A stretch of DNA of 64,000 nucleotides, taken from the NCBI RefSeq assembly GCF_029210365.1, contig NZ_JARGES010000043.1, forward strand, positions 496,001 to 560,000, read 5' to 3'. The position numbers were made by a program, and so were the translations under genes. Positions 10,052-30,156 of the stretch are shown here, one piece after another (positions within the stretch are counted from its first letter, which is position 1; every line of letters begins with the position of its first letter). The DNA is from Mesorhizobium sp. YIM 152430 (GTDB lineage: Bacteria > Pseudomonadota > Alphaproteobacteria > Rhizobiales > Rhizobiaceae). Under the pieces are notes generated by a model that made no database searches, was not told the origin of the DNA, and was given only the letters and a program-made list of their open reading frames with translations.

Positions 10052-10206
10052 GGCGATCTTCCTTTCGATAACTGTTATGGAATATGCGCCGAGCCGCCCC
10101 CTTGTGCAAGCCACGGGAAACGGAACCGCTTTCACCCTTCCACGTTAGCTGAGCAGGACGGCAGCAAATCCGTCACCAAGGTGCAGAACGAGGAAGGAAT
10201 TTGGCC

Positions 10207-10404
10207 ATGAATTGGAATCAGATCGAAGGCAATTGGGAGCAGTTCAAGGGCAAGGCCCAGCAGCAATGGGGCAAGCTCACCAATGACGATCTCGATGTGA
10301 TCAAGGGCAATCGCAAGGAACTGGCAGGAAAGATCCAGGCTCATTACGGCAAGAGCCAGGAAGAAGCCGAACGCGAGATCGACGACTGGTCGGCCCGCCA
10401 CTGA
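10207..10404 (+). CDS. CsbD family stress-associated small protein
   Basis: This 65-residue hydrophilic protein has the full CsbD pattern: MNWNQIEGNWEQFKGKAQQQ, WGKLTNDDLDVIKGNRKEL, AGKIQAHYGKSQEEAEREID. CsbD proteins are abundant under general or osmotic stress, and their molecular role is unknown. The ATG at 10207 has GGAAGGAA about eight bases upstream; an in-frame TTG two codons earlier is less likely. The gene is monocistronic, with a terminator about 100 bases downstream. Confidence 0.9.
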   Translation: MNWNQIEGNWEQFKGKAQQQWGKLTNDDLDVIKGNRKELAGKIQAHYGKSQEEAEREIDDWSARH

Positions 10405-22177: not shown

Positions 22178-22543
22178 TCAATGGCAGGCGGTGAGGAAAA
22201 GAACCGGCCCGAGCGAGAAAAGGGTGGAGGCAAGCGCTGCCCATGCCGCCATCCACGCCGCCGTTTCCATGAAGGGGCGAAGCACGAGCCCCGCTCCGCC
22301 TGCCGCCCGCCGCCGTTCCGCGGTGATCCGCACCACCCACCATCCGGCAGCGAGCGAGACGCCGAGCAGCGCCACAAGCACGGCCCGCTGCACGGAAACG
22401 GGACCGAAATGGACCTGATCCCACCCGAAGACACAGCCGACCGAGAGGACCGAATAAAGCGCGACGAAGGCGATCGACCAGACGATGAAACCGGCCAGCA
22501 GCCACATCAGCCTGCTCGCCGGAACGCGTTCCGAAAGGATCAT
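22178..22543 (-). CDS. Small inner-membrane protein of the cytochrome oxidase operon
   Basis: The 121-residue protein has three hydrophobic segments, at about residues 13-37, 50-68 and 92-115, with a basic ITAERRRAA loop between the second and third. I do not recognise a family. Its ATG overlaps the stop of the fused oxidase subunit gene by four bases, so it is the last gene of that operon. It may be a small oxidase subunit or assembly factor in the position of CoxP in rhizobial coxMNOP sets (inference from position). Confidence 0.7.
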   Translation of the reverse strand: MILSERVPASRLMWLLAGFIVWSIAFVALYSVLSVGCVFGWDQVHFGPVSVQRAVLVALLGVSLAAGWWVVRITAERRRAAGGAGLVLRPFMETAAWMAAWAALASTLFSLGPVLFLTACH

Positions 22544-25062
22544 TGCCCGCCTCCCTGAATTGCGACGATCAGCGGCATGATCAGCACGAGCGCGATACCG
22601 GTAAGGCCCGTGAGCGCCGTATAGTCGTGCCATAATCTGCCGATCCGCAAATCGAGGCTGCGCCGCGCGGAGACGAATCCGTTCATGATCCGCCACACGC
22701 CGTAAAGCGCGAAGACGACGCCGAGCGCGGAATGGATCGCGGTATAGGCGAGCGTGACGAAGGCCGTCGCGGCATAGGCATGGCCGGTCGGCTCGGGCAG
22801 TGCCGTGTTGATGAGGTAGAGGAGCAGCCCGACGCTCACGACATGGGCGCCGGCCGAGGCGAGCAGCAGCGGCAGCGCTCCGCCGCCTTCGGCATTCGCC
22901 GAAACCGCCATGCGCGACAGGAGCGCCGCCCCGACGAGCGCGATGGCCGTCAGCAGAGGCAGCACGAGGCCGGTTTCGAGCAGTTCGGCCGGCGGCCATC
23001 CCGGCGCGACGAGCCAGAGGAAGAACACGGCGAAGATCAGCGAGGCGTAGAGCGTCCCGTTGCAGGCGAGCAGGAGCACCATGCCCCACCAGGAGGGCGG
23101 CCCGTCCGCCTCGTAATGCGGTGGCACGGAAAGATCGCCGCCGACATCGAGTTCGCCGTGGTCGTGCTTGAGACCGGTCACGTTGGTCCAGGCAAGACAG
23201 AGCACCAGCGTCAGGCCAAGCGGGACAAGCGACAGCCAGTAGAACTTGAACAGCAGGCACAGGACGAACAGGCCGATGGCGATCGCCGTCCACAGCGGCA
23301 GGAAGGTCCGGTTCGGCAGGATGATGGTCTGGTCCGGCCGCCCCGTCGTCATGTCGACGCCCAGCGTCTCCTGCCAGCCGTTGCGGCTGAATCCGAGATA
23401 TCCCTTGCCGGCGGCAAGTTCGTTGCCGATCGCGTGCGGGTCGAGCGTGTCGGCGCGCCGATCGACGAGCGGAAGGGCGGCGAAATTGTAGGACGGAGGC
23501 GGGTTGGGCTGCGCCCATTCCAGCGTCCGCGCGCTCCACGGATTGCGCCGGTAAGGCTTGCCGAAGCGGAATTGCAGGATGATGTCGACAAGGATCAGCG
23601 CGAAGCCCATCGTCAGGATGAAGCCGCCGATGGAGGACAAAAGGTTCAGCCAGTCCCAGCCGACGCCCGAGGGATAGGTGTGGACCCTCCGCGGCATCCC
23701 GCGCAGTCCGGTCAGGTGCATCATGAAGAAGGTCATGTTGAAGCCGATGAAGATCAGCCAGAAGGCCGGCACCGAGATCTTGTGCATCGTCAGCCGTCCG
23801 GTGACGTGCGGCAGCCAGTAATAGGCGGCGGCCAGCATCGGGAAGACGAACCCGCCGACCAGCACGTAATGCAGGTGCGCGACGACGAAATAGCTGTCGT
23901 GAACCTGCCAGTTGAACGGCACCATGGCGAGCATCACGCCGGTCAACCCGCCCAGCACGAAGACGAAAAGGAAGCCGAAGATGTAGAGCATCGGCACGTC
24001 GAAGCGCGGTTTTCCGTGCGCCAGCGTGGCCAGCCACGCGAAGATCTGCACCGCGGTCGGGATCGCCACAAGCGCGCTGGCCGCCGAGAAGAAGGCGAGC
24101 GCCAGATGCGGGATGCCCACCGTGAACATGTGATGGACCCATAGCCCGAACGACAGGAATGCGACGGCGATGATTGCGACGATGATCGCGCGATAACCCA
24201 TCAGTTCGCGCCGCGCGAAGACCGGGATGATGGTCGAGACCGCGCCCGCCGCCGGCAGGAAGATGATGTAGACCTCCGGATGGCCGAACAGCCAGAACAG
24301 GTGCTGCCACAAAAGCGAATCGCCGCCCCGCGTCGGGTCGAAGAAGGGCAGGTCGAAGGCGCGTTCCAGTTCGAGCAGGATCGAGCCGAGGATCAGCGGC
24401 GGAAAGCCGATCAGCATCATGCCCGCGGTGACCAGCAGATACCACGCGAAGATCGGCATCCGGTCGAGCGACATGCCCGGCGCGCGCAGCTTGAGGATAG
24501 TCACGGTGATCTCGACCGCTGCCGCGATGGCCGAAATCTCGACGAAGGTGATGCCGAGCAGCCAGACATCGGCGTTGATGCCGGGCGTATAGGTCGAGGA
24601 CGACAGCGGCGTGTACATGAACCAGCCCGAATCCGGCGCGACGCCGAAAAGCATCGCCACGATCAGGATCGATCCGCCGAAGATGTAGCAGTAGAAGCCA
24701 AGCGCGGTCAGCCGCGGGAAGGCGAGGTCGCGCGCGCCGAGGAGCTTGGGCAGGAGGTAGATCGCAAACCCCTCGAACATCGGGATCGCGAACAGGAACA
24801 TCATCACCGTGCCGTGCATGGTGAAGATCTGGTTGTAGACTTCAGGTCCGACGAAGGCGGTGTTCGGCGTTGCCAGTTGAGCCCGGATCAGCATCGACAG
24901 GATGCCGCCGATCGAGAAGAACACGAAGGCGGCGATGATGAAGCGGCGGCCGAGGATCGTGTGATTGACGGCGGCAAGCCGTTGCAGGCCGGGCGGCGTA
25001 TGCCAGATCGCGTCGAGTTCGCGATGCAGCCTGATGGCGTTCGTTTCGTGCCTCTCGCTCAT
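22540..25062 (-). CDS. Cytochrome c oxidase, subunits I and III fused
   Basis: The 840-residue membrane protein joins a heme-copper oxidase subunit I (about 1-600) to a subunit III (about 640-840). Subunit I shows the active-site helix FGHPEVYIIFLPAAG with the CuB His, cross-linked Tyr and proton-channel Glu, the CuB pair in WVHHMFTVGIP, and heme ligands in VAHLHYVLVGG. The subunit III part (WWGMVLLLACNGTLYASLIF onward) has about six hydrophobic segments. It reduces oxygen to water while pumping protons in the inner membrane. The start overlaps the subunit II stop by four bases. Order II, I-III, small membrane protein resembles coxMNOP with N and O fused. Confidence 0.92.
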   Translation of the reverse strand: MSERHETNAIRLHRELDAIWHTPPGLQRLAAVNHTILGRRFIIAAFVFFSIGGILSMLIRAQLATPNTAFVGPEVYNQIFTMHGTVMMFLFAIPMFEGFAIYLLPKLLGARDLAFPRLTALGFYCYIFGGSILIVAMLFGVAPDSGWFMYTPLSSSTYTPGINADVWLLGITFVEISAIAAAVEITVTILKLRAPGMSLDRMPIFAWYLLVTAGMMLIGFPPLILGSILLELERAFDLPFFDPTRGGDSLLWQHLFWLFGHPEVYIIFLPAAGAVSTIIPVFARRELMGYRAIIVAIIAVAFLSFGLWVHHMFTVGIPHLALAFFSAASALVAIPTAVQIFAWLATLAHGKPRFDVPMLYIFGFLFVFVLGGLTGVMLAMVPFNWQVHDSYFVVAHLHYVLVGGFVFPMLAAAYYWLPHVTGRLTMHKISVPAFWLIFIGFNMTFFMMHLTGLRGMPRRVHTYPSGVGWDWLNLLSSIGGFILTMGFALILVDIILQFRFGKPYRRNPWSARTLEWAQPNPPPSYNFAALPLVDRRADTLDPHAIGNELAAGKGYLGFSRNGWQETLGVDMTTGRPDQTIILPNRTFLPLWTAIAIGLFVLCLLFKFYWLSLVPLGLTLVLCLAWTNVTGLKHDHGELDVGGDLSVPPHYEADGPPSWWGMVLLLACNGTLYASLIFAVFFLWLVAPGWPPAELLETGLVLPLLTAIALVGAALLSRMAVSANAEGGGALPLLLASAGAHVVSVGLLLYLINTALPEPTGHAYAATAFVTLAYTAIHSALGVVFALYGVWRIMNGFVSARRSLDLRIGRLWHDYTALTGLTGIALVLIMPLIVAIQGGGQ

Positions 25063-25715
25063 CGCGATGCCTCCGCGCGTGCTTCGGCCAGTGCGGCAGC
25101 GTAGTCTTCGGGCGCATGGGCGATGAGTGTGAAGCGCATGGTCGTGTGTCCGTTGCCGCAGAATTCGGCGCAGACGCCGCGATAGGCGCCCGGCCGGTCG
25201 GCCTCGATGCGCAGCACGTTCTCGTGGCCGGGTATGGCGTCGATCTTTCCCGCGAGCCGCGGCACCCAGAAGGAATGGATGACGTCTTCCGTCGTCACCA
25301 CGACGTCGACCGGTTGTCCTACGGGGATATGAAGTTCGCTTGTCGTCGCCTCGTCGTCGTCATAGCCGAAGCGCCAGTCCCATTGATAAGCCTGCGCGTA
25401 GACGCGCAGAGGCGGGTCTTCGAGCGGGCGGGGGATCAGCCTTTCGCCGAGCACGAAGGCGGCGCCGACGAGCCCGACAAGGACGATGCTCGGCATGACC
25501 AGCCCTCCGCCGACGAGCCACTGGCCGACCGAGACACGCGCAAGGGCTGCCGGCCGGAACCATGCGAGCGCGTAAAGCGCGCCGACCAGAACGAAGAGCG
25601 CGGCCGAACCCCAGAACATGATCCACCACAAAGTCGCGACCGCGGCGGCGGCAGGTCCCGCAGGATCGAGCGTCGAAAGCGGCCCCGAACAGGCAGCCAG
25701 GAGCGGCAGGGGCAA
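25059..25715 (-). CDS. Cytochrome c oxidase subunit II (probable lipoprotein)
   Basis: The CuA-bearing subunit accepts electrons from cytochrome c. Visible are two N-terminal membrane segments, YQWDWRFGY, VIHSFWVPRL with the first CuA His, and CAEFCGNGHTTM with the two Cys, His and Met ligands. The start is uncertain. The only usable start codon in frame is TTG at 25715, which gives MPLPLLAACSG and no basic leader. Upstream codons EWR-LAALLPLPLLAAC would form a proper lipoprotein signal but have no ATG, GTG or TTG. A GAGG-GTG pair lies in the wrong frame at about 25742. Either an unusual start codon or a one-base error or frameshift is possible. Confidence 0.8.
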   Translation of the reverse strand: MPLPLLAACSGPLSTLDPAGPAAAAVATLWWIMFWGSAALFVLVGALYALAWFRPAALARVSVGQWLVGGGLVMPSIVLVGLVGAAFVLGERLIPRPLEDPPLRVYAQAYQWDWRFGYDDDEATTSELHIPVGQPVDVVVTTEDVIHSFWVPRLAGKIDAIPGHENVLRIEADRPGAYRGVCAEFCGNGHTTMRFTLIAHAPEDYAAALAEARAEASR

Positions 25716-25820
25716 GAGGGCTGCAAGGCGCCACTCGACACCGCCTCGCGGCGCGCTAGAATCGAGCTGTGCGGAACGAGGCGGGTTCGTCTCCGTTCGG
25801 GACGAAACGGAGGGCTTCCA

Positions 25821-26321
25821 ATGAACGAGACGCGCGACCGGGGCAATCCCGTCATCGAGGAAGTGATCGAAGAGGAAATCACCTCCACCGTCGCCATCGC
25901 CGGCCATCCGATCCATGCGATGAGCGTCCATTTCCCCATCGCGCTCGTCTTCGGCGTGCTCGGTTGCGACGTTTTCTACTGGTGGACAGGCGATCCGTTC
26001 TGGGTGCGCGTCGGCATCTGGGCGGCGGGTTTCGCCTTCTTCACCGGCATTGCGGCGGGCGTCGTCGGCACGCTCGAACTCCTGCTCGTCGCCGGTATCC
26101 GGATGCGCGTGGCAAGCTGGACCCATGCCGTTGCTGCCGTGACGCTGATTGCCATCGCCGGCACCAATTGGGGCCTGCGTCTGGTCGACGAGAGTGCGGT
26201 TCTGCCGCATGGAATCCTGCTCTCGGTTCTCGCGAGCATCTTCACCGGGCTTGCCGGCTGGCATGGCGGGAAACTGGTGTTCGATCACGGTGTCGGCCTC
26301 ATCGTGACAGCCAGGGAATGA
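25821..26321 (+). CDS. DUF2231 family membrane protein
   Basis: The 166-residue inner-membrane protein has four hydrophobic segments, starting near residue 37. The motif GHPIHAMSVHFPIALVFGVL near the start and the closing GLAGWHGGKLVFDHGVGL identify the DUF2231 family. The paired His residues (HPIH, VHFP, GWHGG, DHGVG) suggest heme or metal binding in the membrane (inference). GGAG lies before the ATG. It is divergent from the cytochrome oxidase subunit II gene and convergent with the CopD/HemJ-like gene, whose end it overlaps by 23 bases. Confidence 0.8.
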   Translation: MNETRDRGNPVIEEVIEEEITSTVAIAGHPIHAMSVHFPIALVFGVLGCDVFYWWTGDPFWVRVGIWAAGFAFFTGIAAGVVGTLELLLVAGIRMRVASWTHAVAAVTLIAIAGTNWGLRLVDESAVLPHGILLSVLASIFTGLAGWHGGKLVFDHGVGLIVTARE

Positions 26322-26799
26322 AGCCGCCGACGATGTCGCGCAGCGCGCCGGGGCGCATCCATTCGGCGGGCACCCAGTCGAAGTGGAGCGGCGGCTTGGC
26401 GAGCACCACGGCGAGAATCGCAAGGACGACCAGCGTCGTGACGATGGTGACGGCGACGAAGCGCCAGGCCGGATACCTCTCGCCCTTTTCGAACAGGCGG
26501 ATGATGACGAGGCCGGTCAGGATGTGGATCACGACCAGAACACCGACGAACGCCATCTTCAGCGAGAACCATTCGACGAAGGTCGATTGCAGGAAGATGA
26601 GCCCGATGCCCGAGCCGACCGCCACGAAGGCGGCCGGCGAAATCAGAGAGACATAGGCGAAGCGCACCAGCCCCTGGAGACGGTAGAGCGCATCGTCGTT
26701 CTCCATGTTGTGGCGCTGCGCATAAAGGCCGGGCAGGCAGATCAGCCCGGCGCACCAGATCGAGATCGCGGCCAGATGGACGAATTTCAGCCAGACCAT
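26299..26799 (-). CDS. CopD/HemJ-like integral membrane protein
   Basis: The 166-residue protein has four hydrophobic segments and starts MVWLKFVHLAAISIWCAGLI, then CLPGLYAQRHNM. This resembles HemJ and CopD proteins, where the first-helix His and a later Lys bind heme. Annotation varies between copper resistance protein D-like and protoporphyrinogen oxidase HemJ-like; I cannot choose. The ATG at 26799 overlaps the stop of the CtaG gene, so the pair is translationally coupled and probably serves oxidase or heme assembly. Confidence 0.7.
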   Translation of the reverse strand: MVWLKFVHLAAISIWCAGLICLPGLYAQRHNMENDDALYRLQGLVRFAYVSLISPAAFVAVGSGIGLIFLQSTFVEWFSLKMAFVGVLVVIHILTGLVIIRLFEKGERYPAWRFVAVTIVTTLVVLAILAVVLAKPPLHFDWVPAEWMRPGALRDIVGGFIPWLSR

Positions 26800-27572
26800 C
26801 AGCGCGCTTTCGGCGAGGCGAACGGTTCGGCGCGGCCGAAGAGCTTCCAGGCGATGACGAGCGCCACCGCCAGATAGGGCAGCGCCGCCGGCACCCACAT
26901 CAGGAGCCCGGCCAGTTGCTGGTCGCCGAGCGGCGTCAGGCCGAAGGGCAGCGTGGTGGTCGCATGGGCTTCATAGAGCGGCCGCGTGGCAAAGGTCAAA
27001 AGTGCGCCCAGCATCCCCATCTGGACGATCGAACCGAGCAGGGCGCCAAGCGCCGGCCCGGCGCGCGCGGCGAAGATTCCCTGCCACATCGCGAAGGCCG
27101 AGAAGAAAAGCGACAATTCCATCAGCCAGTAGACGGGCACGGATGACAGCGCCCATTCATAGGGGAGCGGCGCGTGCCACGTCCACATCAGAACCGTATG
27201 GGCAAGGAATGTCGCCGACAGCGGCATCCGGCCGAATCGCGCCGGCAGGGCCAGCGCCAGAAGCGGCGCTGCGGCTGCCACCAGCAGCAGGTGGTGGACG
27301 ATGCGGGCGGAAAACAGCGCCGATGCGACCGCGCAGACCGGGGAGACGAAGGCGATCAGCAGAACCAGAACGGCCATTGCGCCGTAGGGCGAACGGGCGG
27401 CTTGTCGCACGCCCGTTGACGACATGGCGAATGCGCCGACCGCCATCGCCGCGAACACGGCGATCAGCAGCGGGTCGAAATTCCAGCTCGACCAAAGGTC
27501 GCCTGGATGCGGTGCCGGTCCACAATAGGGGGTCTGCGTCGGTTGCAATCTGCCTCTCCGGTCGTCCCACAC
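26799..27572 (-). CDS. ctaG: CtaG (caa3-type) cytochrome c oxidase assembly protein
   Basis: The 257-residue membrane protein has about seven hydrophobic segments. The N-terminal YCGPAPHPGDLWSSWNFDP and the helix pair HHLLLVAAAAPLLAL / HTVLMWTWHAPLPYEWAL are hallmarks of the caa3_CtaG family, which is unrelated to the Cox11-type CtaG. Members help build heme-copper oxidases. The start is GTG. It is coupled to the CopD/HemJ-like gene and lies on the same strand as the oxidase genes, but it is separated from them by the oppositely oriented DUF2231 gene. Confidence 0.85.
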   Translation of the reverse strand: MWDDRRGRLQPTQTPYCGPAPHPGDLWSSWNFDPLLIAVFAAMAVGAFAMSSTGVRQAARSPYGAMAVLVLLIAFVSPVCAVASALFSARIVHHLLLVAAAAPLLALALPARFGRMPLSATFLAHTVLMWTWHAPLPYEWALSSVPVYWLMELSLFFSAFAMWQGIFAARAGPALGALLGSIVQMGMLGALLTFATRPLYEAHATTTLPFGLTPLGDQQLAGLLMWVPAALPYLAVALVIAWKLFGRAEPFASPKAR

Positions 27573-27611: not shown

Positions 27612-30080
27612 TTAGACGATCAGCTTGTGATAAAGGCCCCAGCGGCGCGTGATCTTTCCCTTCGGCAGCGCCAGCGCGATCAACGCGATGCCAGCCAGAA
27701 TCGCAGAGGCGATCTCGGCGCCCCTCGCCTCGACTAAGACGAGCGATCCGATCAGGATCGCGCCGAGCGCGACATTGACGTAGCGCGCAGGCCGACCTGT
27801 TTCGGCGAGCGCGATGACCGCGAAGGTCAGCGCCAGCGATCCGACGACATGATTGACGTTCGCGACGCCGCCATCGGAACCGAGCGACAGCGGCGTGAAC
27901 ATCAGCCACAGCGCGACGGGCAATGACAAAACGAGGTTCCAGGGCAGCCCGATTCCACCGCCGAAGAACGTCCCGACGATTTGATTGGGGGCGAGTTCAA
28001 AGGTCCGCTTCCGTTTCGCTGGCGCCTCGCCCTCGTCCGTATCGCCGGTAAAGAAGATGCGGATGACCGGCTCGCCTTTCCTCCATTTGCGGTAGAGGAA
28101 TTCCGAAGTCGCGACCAGTTCGTCGAGCGAATAGGGGATCTGCAAGAGCATCGCCGCTGCGCCGATCAGGCAAAGCGTGCAGAACGTGCCGATGACGATC
28201 GGCTGGATGATGATGAAGCCGATCGAGACGATTCCGAGCGGCACGATCAGGATGCCGAAGGCGATCGTCACCCAGGGCATCGTCCGCCAGCGGCGCTGCG
28301 ATCCGACGAGGCCGATGACGATCTCGAGGAGATAGACCGCAGCCCCCATGCCGGCATCGGGAATCGGGAAAGCTTCCGAGACGTCCGACGTCACCACGTC
28401 CTCGGTTCCGTTCAGTCCCGCGCGCGTTCCACCGAAGAACGGGTCCCAGGCCGCGTCGATATGGCCGAGCTGGTAGGCGGCGAGATATCGAGAAAAATAG
28501 AGTCCGACGAAGGCGAGCAGGATGATCGGCATCCGTTGCAGCCAGCTCGATGGATTGTAGCTCCAGCCGGGCGGAACGTCCGGTCCGGTCATCTGGGCGA
28601 TCGGGCTCACGCCCGGCTCGGGCCTGACGCACAGCGCCAGCGCCATGACGAGCGTGCCGACCAGCGTCCCGTTCAGATAGGCTGCCGCCGACGGCGTCCA
28701 GAAGACGAGCGGCGCGAACAGAATCCACAGGCCGACGACGGCCGTTGCGAAACGCACCATCGACAGCCGCCACGAAAGCGACAGGAGACCGAGCACGAAG
28801 AGCAGGGCGCCGGACGCCATGTCGCTCCAGCCGAGCCAGCTATCGGCATAGCCCATCGTCGCGGGTGAAACGATCATCCATGTGCCGAGCGCCGCATTGG
28901 CGAAATGCGCCCAGATGAAGCGTGCATGTTCGTCGCGCACCATCTCCTCGTGACGGGAGCGGATGTCCTCTGGGTTCTCGCCGCGCGCGTCGGCGGTCTT
29001 CAGCCAGTCCGGCGGCGTCAGACCGTTCTTCTCGTACCAGCCGGCCGGATCGGCCTTCAACTTGGCGACGATGGTCGACAGCGACGTGCGGATCGAATGG
29101 CGCGGCTCCCAACCGAGCTGTTTCCTGGCAAGGGAAATGTCGAGCGCGTAGTGGTCCTCCGCCATGTCGATCATGAACGGGCGGATGAACGGCTTTTCCC
29201 CCTTGTCGATGTCGTCGGGAATGAGTGGCTCGGCCTTGACCTCGGCAAATGCGCCGATCTTGGCGATCGGCTTCGGCACCGAAAAGGTCTCCCATTCCGC
29301 CTCGCCATGGATCAGCCGGCCGATCAGCGTCTGCAATTCGTCATAGGGCACCGCTTCGGCCTCGCCGGCGAGGATCACGCACTCGTCCGGCAGCGCCTTG
29401 CGCTTGTCGACGGCCAGCTTGAACAGCCGCATCATGTCGTCGCGATGGATGAAGGATTGCCCCGCCTTTACGTCGCCGGAATAAAGATGCGCCTTCATGT
29501 CGCGCTCGTAGATGCGCGCGATCTGGTGGGCGAGCGTCGGAACCGAACTCTCCTCATCATAAACACCGGCCAGATGAAGGAGCAGGATCGGCATCGCCCC
29601 GCGCTCCTGGCGGATCACCTCTTCCGCCTTCGCCTTCGATTTCGGATAGGCCCATTTCGGTGCGATCGGCGTGTCCTCGTCGACCGCTTCGCCCGGCTCG
29701 CCCGCCTCATGCACCAGCATGGTGCCGGAATAGATGAAGCGCTCGACGGAAACGTCCCGAAGCGCCCGCATCAGGTGCCGCGTGCCGTCGATGTTCACCT
29801 TCTGGTAAAGCGGATGATCCTCGCCGGAAAAATCGAAATAGGCGGCGAGATGAATCACCGCCGCGATCTCGGCACCGAATTGCGCCGTGACATTGCCGAT
29901 GGCGGTGCGCGTCGAATCCTCGGAGGTCAGGTCGACTTCGAAAAGCGGGCAGTCCGCTTCCTTGCCTTCGACGTCCAGCCCCACCACCTGGTACGAACCG
30001 GCGAGTTCCCGCGTCAGCGCCACGCCGAGATTTCCCGCCGCGCCGGTGATCAGGACGACCGGCTTTGTCTCGTCTGCCAT
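27612..30080 (-). CDS. Fusion protein: NAD-dependent epimerase/dehydratase + SPW + VKOR-like membrane domains
   Basis: This is an 822-residue multidomain protein. Residues 1-355 form an extended SDR with dinucleotide loop TGAAGNLG and catalytic YPKSK. From about 390 there are two helices with an SPW-repeat pattern (MIVSPATMGYADSWLGWSDM). About 515-650 is a four-helix region with FCTLC, matching the CxxC helix of vitamin K epoxide reductase (VKOR)-like proteins. The last ~120 residues are a second SPW-like helix set. The loop Cys pair that normally shuttles electrons in VKOR is absent; FCTLC holds the only Cys in that part. Role unknown; a membrane redox function coupled to a sugar or lipid dehydrogenase is conceivable. 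It starts 76 bases after the RidA gene on the same strand. Confidence 0.78.
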   Translation of the reverse strand: MADETKPVVLITGAAGNLGVALTRELAGSYQVVGLDVEGKEADCPLFEVDLTSEDSTRTAIGNVTAQFGAEIAAVIHLAAYFDFSGEDHPLYQKVNIDGTRHLMRALRDVSVERFIYSGTMLVHEAGEPGEAVDEDTPIAPKWAYPKSKAKAEEVIRQERGAMPILLLHLAGVYDEESSVPTLAHQIARIYERDMKAHLYSGDVKAGQSFIHRDDMMRLFKLAVDKRKALPDECVILAGEAEAVPYDELQTLIGRLIHGEAEWETFSVPKPIAKIGAFAEVKAEPLIPDDIDKGEKPFIRPFMIDMAEDHYALDISLARKQLGWEPRHSIRTSLSTIVAKLKADPAGWYEKNGLTPPDWLKTADARGENPEDIRSRHEEMVRDEHARFIWAHFANAALGTWMIVSPATMGYADSWLGWSDMASGALLFVLGLLSLSWRLSMVRFATAVVGLWILFAPLVFWTPSAAAYLNGTLVGTLVMALALCVRPEPGVSPIAQMTGPDVPPGWSYNPSSWLQRMPIILLAFVGLYFSRYLAAYQLGHIDAAWDPFFGGTRAGLNGTEDVVTSDVSEAFPIPDAGMGAAVYLLEIVIGLVGSQRRWRTMPWVTIAFGILIVPLGIVSIGFIIIQPIVIGTFCTLCLIGAAAMLLQIPYSLDELVATSEFLYRKWRKGEPVIRIFFTGDTDEGEAPAKRKRTFELAPNQIVGTFFGGGIGLPWNLVLSLPVALWLMFTPLSLGSDGGVANVNHVVGSLALTFAVIALAETGRPARYVNVALGAILIGSLVLVEARGAEIASAILAGIALIALALPKGKITRRWGLYHKLIV

Positions 30081-30156
30081 GAATGCGCATCCCCCTGGCC
30101 GTTCATGTCGTGAACGCCAGCCTCCGCCTCATGTTCCATGCGAATGTGCTGAAATA

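Follow-up and report, generated by a model that had tools for sequence, protein, structure and literature searches.

The fusion gene in the window (the whole 64-kb stretch of DNA that was analyzed) encodes a recurring, uncharacterised protein in which an extended SDR is followed by SPW, VKOR and SPW domains. We describe its architecture, conservation and promoter sites, and we infer a function: with a probability of roughly 40%, the protein is a general-stress-induced oxidoreductase that depends on NAD and is anchored to a VKOR-like bundle, which binds quinone or isoprenoid and carries an optional periplasmic dithiol. The VKOR bundle, and not the SDR, is the most constrained part of the protein.

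27612..30080, minus strand: SDR-SPW-VKOR-SPW fusion gene, an open reading frame with an ATG start, 822 aa and full-length relatives
30113..30137, minus strand: match to the EcfG (general stress response) promoter, GGAAC-N16-CGTT, at -57 from the ATG of the fusion gene
29001..30068, minus strand: extended SDR domain, residues 5-360, by Pfam, alignment and fold match
28626..28916, minus strand: first SPW domain, residues 389-485, four predicted transmembrane (TM) helices, by Pfam
28077..28568, minus strand: VKOR domain, residues 505-668, four predicted TM helices, by Pfam, alignment and dN/dS
28170..28181, minus strand: CTLC motif, residues 634-637, at the predicted periplasmic end of VKOR TM4
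27666..27953, minus strand: second SPW domain, residues 710-805, four predicted TM helices, by genome profile search

The reading frame occupies exactly 27612-30080 on the minus strand and contains no internal stops. A Pfam search of the 822-aa protein detected Epimerase at residues 9-230 (E 5e-22), SPW at 390-483 (60.7 bits against a cut-off of 31.5, in two stretches) and VKOR (PF07884) at 518-651 (86.3 bits against a cut-off of 27.5), and a profile search of the host genome detected two SPW (PF03779) copies, each above the cut-off, the second one after VKOR. These searches bear out the domain order SDR, SPW, VKOR, SPW that an initial annotation had proposed, as well as its VKOR assignment, for which it had named a profile search as the test; the SDR motifs it had described as intact, TGAAGNLG and YPKSK, are both found in the protein. 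Comparison with relatives of about 90% identity gave dN/dS values of 0.04-0.15 across all domains, lowest in VKOR (0.04-0.08), which indicates that the fusion gene is real and constrained; together with the full-length architecture in many genomes, this rules out a frameshift or misassembly artefact as the origin of the fusion. No defence family among the PADLOC profiles matched the protein, and an anti-phage reading was therefore dropped. None of the NCBIfam equivalogs was reached either, the best being HpnA with 55 bits against a cut-off of 368. Family members are currently annotated as either 'epimerase' or 'VKOR', and the open-licence literature yielded no paper on the SPW repeat, on EcfG with VKOR, or on VKOR with copper resistance and epimerase.

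An AlphaFold2 model built from a 25-sequence alignment (pLDDT 84) places the SDR ahead of 12 TM helices arranged as 4+4+4. Lys and Arg residues number 17 in the inner loops and 2 in the outer loops, and from this charge distribution the SDR is predicted to be cytosolic, with CTLC at the periplasmic end of VKOR TM4. Structure searches of the PDB with the whole model listed only SDRs, so that the matches speak for the SDR and not for the membrane half, and a PDB sequence search with the VKOR part gave no match. Modelled alone, the VKOR domain yielded a poor model (pLDDT 58) with no PDB match, and its Foldseek matches were discarded for that reason. Stand-alone SPW repeat proteins (PF03779) are about 130 aa long, whereas in the fusion two SPW domains, both above the cut-off of this family, bracket VKOR. 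The host also carries two stand-alone SPW genes of about 130 aa (C10:542371-542652 and C40:154032-154313), with no exact EcfG site in the surrounding 3.3 kb.

The cysteine content sets this VKOR domain apart. FCTLC lies at residues 633-637 with no further Cys in the VKOR part, and when a VKOR-DsbA protein of a different genome is aligned, G550 and T559 take the places of its two loop Cys. None of the relatives examined, haloarchaea included, carries Cys in the periplasmic loop of VKOR, so the earlier remark that the protein keeps a CxxC and cannot use the usual loop-Cys relay holds across the family. Since the loop pair is a defining VKOR feature, the fusion is not a canonical VKOR enzyme despite its PF07884 profile. 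With bacterial VKOR and VKOR-Trx/DsbA proteins it has in common the profile match, a predicted four-helix bundle, the CxxC at the start of TM4 and the equivalent of human Ser57 (S565, which is invariant). Unlike them, it has G550 and T559 at the loop Cys positions, lacks the Trx domain of the VKOR-Trx/DsbA fusions, is flanked by two SPW domains and joined to an SDR, and belongs to a family in which the CxxC is dispensable. A published VKOR phylogeny (PMC4555120) held Cys43, Cys51, Ser57, Cys132 and Cys135 to be fully conserved and culled sequences without the known conserved residues.

The CxxC is present in 40 of the 56 family rows, three haloarchaeal proteins among these. The other 16 have neither Cys and, with one exception, carry Ser and Ala instead; a row with a single remaining Cys does not occur (0/56). 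On a tree built without the Cys columns, the loss takes three changes, a number also imposed by the well-supported branches. No alignment columns other than the two Cys positions separate losers from keepers, and of 48 other VKOR positions that are invariant in the keepers, 42 are invariant in the losers as well. Because the pair was lost three times with these 42 positions unchanged, thiol redox cannot be the shared function; the all-or-none loss argues at the same time that the pair, where present, is not idle but works as a dithiol/disulfide. The alignment thus points to a job of the VKOR bundle that would be independent of the Cys, and to a CxxC that probably works as a pair yet is dispensable. 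This bears on the initial annotation in two ways: its suggestion of a redox enzyme with another partner, or else a non-redox CxxC, agrees with the paired loss as far as a dithiol role goes and fails as a description of the whole family, and CxxC conservation, which it had set as a refuting test, proved to be partial. VKOR enzymes are defined by four Cys. The present family, found in proteobacteria and haloarchaea, lacks the loop pair everywhere and has lost the CxxC three times, yet little else in the bundle has changed, and it provides a natural experiment on the role of the VKOR fold in the absence of thiols.

The VKOR core is the most conserved part of the protein (mean identity 0.68, against 0.46-0.51 elsewhere), with the motifs RWRTMPW, PLG and QP; RWRTMPW is invariant from proteobacteria through haloarchaea, and the invariant residues include charged and polar ones. 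Going by what VKOR does elsewhere, the thiol-free job would most naturally be the binding of quinone or a similar isoprenoid lipid.

The SDR contains the motif residues TGAAGNLG, T120, Y145-x-x-x-K149 and D36, the last of which, as the acidic end of beta-2, suggests a preference for NAD. It shares TGxxGxxG, YxxxK and the fold (Z about 28.8 over about 290 residues in a structure search with the model) with extended SDRs of the GalE / UDP-glucuronate 4-epimerase type, although identity to these is only about 20% and, unlike them, it is tethered to a 12-TM unit. Across the family alignment, the SDR motifs are intact in almost all fused members. Four Cupriavidus members have lost the Tyr and Lys of YxxxK and keep CTLC and the membrane half; given this loss, SDR catalysis would not be universal in the family.

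Fused proteins were found in about 1% of sampled proteobacterial genomes, namely 5/385 in the class and 6/398 in the phylum (both samples even, the host counted in both), and the open frame at every match in these samples spans 831-903 aa, enough to accommodate the fused form. In haloarchaea the membrane half occurs alone, without a fused SDR, at three loci. These proteins, named 'vitamin K epoxide reductase family protein' (454-504 aa), have the order SPW-VKOR-SPW, are 38-40% identical to the membrane half of the fusion and contain only the two Cys of CTLC; in contrast to the fusion, their genes are followed directly at 3/3 loci by a separate gene for an SDR of a different class. Haloprofundus and Natrinema have a GH15 gene before the membrane-half gene and a classical SDR gene after it, and in Haladaptatus the next gene encodes an NDUFA9-type SDR. 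In Cupriavidus and Azoarcus, GH15 and classical SDR genes also stand ahead of the fused gene, and the classical SDR there is 51-54% identical to the haloarchaeal ones. Since the neighbouring SDRs belong to classes other than that of the fused extended SDR, the pattern reflects a recurring SDR partnership and not a split of the same gene. Loss of the CxxC in some lineages and of YxxxK in Cupriavidus shows that each enzymatic motif can be lost separately, while the membrane core with RWRTMPW stays. Two of the haloarchaeal runs of GH15 (trehalase-like), SPW-VKOR-SPW and classical SDR genes are located in copper-gene regions of plasmids.

The site upstream of the fusion gene fits the alphaproteobacterial EcfG consensus GGAAC-N17-20-GTT (PMC6599016), and genes for PhyR, NepR and an ECF sigma factor (EcfG) lie together in the host. 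Using exact GGAAC-N16/17-CGTT within <=200 bp upstream as the criterion in relatives, we found sites at 12/35 alphaproteobacterial loci from five or six lineages (expected 0.19) and at 0/8 loci outside the alphaproteobacteria; one further EcfG site was seen in another genome of the class (L042). Genome-wide, the exact motif occurs 69 times, against 67 for the reversed control, and as there is no enrichment a single EcfG site is weak evidence; the support comes from position, strand and recurrence. The window contains three exact sites, before the CsbD gene, the DUF2231 gene and the fusion gene. The first, in the stretch 10122-10404 (plus strand), is upstream of a CsbD-like stress protein and supports a motif that is probably functional in this genome; another, at 25773-25797 (plus strand), stands 23 nt ahead of the DUF2231 gene. 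The fusion gene is hence a predicted general-stress (EcfG) target. With it, the list of such targets, like the inventory of oxidase and copper stress islands, gains an uncharacterised membrane enzyme.

In the reading we prefer, the N-terminal extended SDR would be cytosolic, would use NAD(H) and would be tethered to a 12-helix SPW4-VKOR4-SPW4 inner-membrane unit, whose VKOR-like bundle may bind quinone or an isoprenoid-type lipid. The SDR would transfer hydride on a membrane-associated substrate that the membrane unit holds or delivers. Where CTLC is present, it might serve as a two-Cys centre through which the bound quinone and a thiol partner on the outside exchange electrons directly, with no loop-Cys relay, and lineages without CTLC would keep the remaining function. 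Quinone or lipid binding, the SDR substrate and any electron flow are proposed here on comparative grounds. The separate SDR genes beside the haloarchaeal membrane half and beside the fused genes of Cupriavidus and Azoarcus favour a partnership of SDR and membrane unit; the Tyr/Lys loss in Cupriavidus, the different classes of the haloarchaeal SDRs and the low pLDDT of the isolated VKOR model count against the reading as a whole. An extended version, in which the VKOR fold was repurposed from disulfide chemistry so that a quinone/isoprenoid bundle and an NAD-dependent SDR together couple cytosolic NAD(H) to the membrane quinone/lipid pool under general stress, flavin-free and with the CxxC serving an optional side role, is speculative, and we regard it as improbable.

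The SDR might instead be the only working enzyme, with SPW-VKOR-SPW as a mere membrane anchor or scaffold and CTLC as a relic of a VKOR ancestor. Such a role would agree with the threefold CxxC loss without any other signature, with a loop that lacks Cys in every member and with SDR motifs that are intact almost throughout. A passive anchor is, however, difficult to reconcile with a VKOR part that is more conserved than the SDR and holds charged and polar invariants, with a membrane half that exists without a fused SDR in haloarchaea and persists beside a degenerate SDR in Cupriavidus, or with Cys that are never lost singly and that haloarchaea retain; we consider this alternative rather unlikely.

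Also unlikely, to a slightly greater degree, is a disulfide generator of the VKOR/DsbB type, in which quinone-oxidised CTLC would hand disulfides directly to a periplasmic partner (SCO, TlpA or DsbA-like) for copper or oxidase assembly and the SDR would be an added regulator. VKOR homology by profile, the predicted periplasmic position of CTLC and the SCO, TlpA, DsbA, CcdA or DsbE genes near some members are consistent with it. The loop Cys are nevertheless absent, there is no Trx-like domain as in VKOR-DsbA fusions, and the one member flanked by SCO/TlpA/DsbA has no CxxC. The host, moreover, already has two DsbB genes by profile search, which makes the fusion unlikely as the cell's main disulfide generator; DsbB (PF02600) was not among the Pfam matches of the fusion protein at E up to 1.

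Downstream of the fusion gene lies an oxidase-assembly module.

26799..27572, minus strand: CtaG (caa3 oxidase assembly factor), 39 bp downstream of the fusion gene
26299..26898, minus strand: CopD-like / UPF0093 membrane protein
25821..26321, plus strand: DUF2231 membrane protein with its own EcfG match, antisense between CopD and coxB
25059..25961, minus strand: coxB, cytochrome c oxidase subunit II with CuA motif, start approximate
22540..25062, minus strand: coxA, cytochrome c oxidase subunit I, 840 aa

The length of coxA suggests a putative I-III fusion. An Aquisalinus member (56% identical) has the same gene order as the module in the window, and two Alteromonas plasmids carry CopD, DUF2231, coxB, ctaD and CtaG upstream of the fusion gene; the antisense layout of DUF2231 is likewise seen on the Alteromonas plasmids. 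CtaG and CopD are downstream at a further locus (L043, genome G182), the Aliihoeflea group displays CtaG/CopD/cox linkage, and coxA or CtaG is near members on two Microvirga plasmids and one Sulfitobacter plasmid. Copper-handling genes (copper ATPase, CueR, cop, multicopper oxidase, DUF411 or plastocyanin) flank the Pelagibacterium, Sphingobium, Sphingorhabdus, Paraburkholderia and haloarchaeal members. Neighbourhoods vary widely, many being stress islands that gather unrelated genes, and the oxidase/copper linkage is given here as a description of gene neighbourhoods and not as a scored association. Genes for tryptophan 2,3-dioxygenase and kynureninase are about 5 kb upstream of the fusion gene, with RidA and ABC-transporter genes between; none was seen beside distant family members, and they look incidental. 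The initial annotation had stated that neither neighbour explains the gene, which stands for the tryptophan genes and has to be revised for oxidase assembly, where linkage recurs in several lineages. Although the copper genes beside those members and CtaG/CopD in the window might suggest that CTLC binds Cu(I) in the membrane and that the protein assists in delivering or detoxifying copper for the assembly of heme-copper oxidases, this is very unlikely, because CTLC is absent from the members in the richest copper clusters, those of Sphingobium and Sphingorhabdus, and many members have no copper gene nearby.

In the transmissible locus of stress tolerance (tLST; PMC8290217) and in sphingomonad plasmid copies, Hsp20, YfdX, cardiolipin synthase and K+ efflux genes lie alongside; unlike the sphingomonad copies, the copy in the window is not in a tLST-type island. 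The word epimerase is absent from the tLST paper (PMC8290217). No homologue was found in the last 29 kb of pSymA of Sinorhizobium meliloti 1021. The annotation of S. meliloti R11 (L087 5992-8688) divides the gene into four pieces that overlap, the gene being broken or misread there, and on Paraburkholderia pBIL the annotation covers only a C-terminal piece. The copy in a MAG labelled Methylibium, a betaproteobacterium, groups with those of Microvirga and Mesorhizobium, through recent transfer or misbinning. A sodium:calcium antiporter gene is adjacent to or near the fusion gene at seven loci in roseobacters and Aquisalinus.
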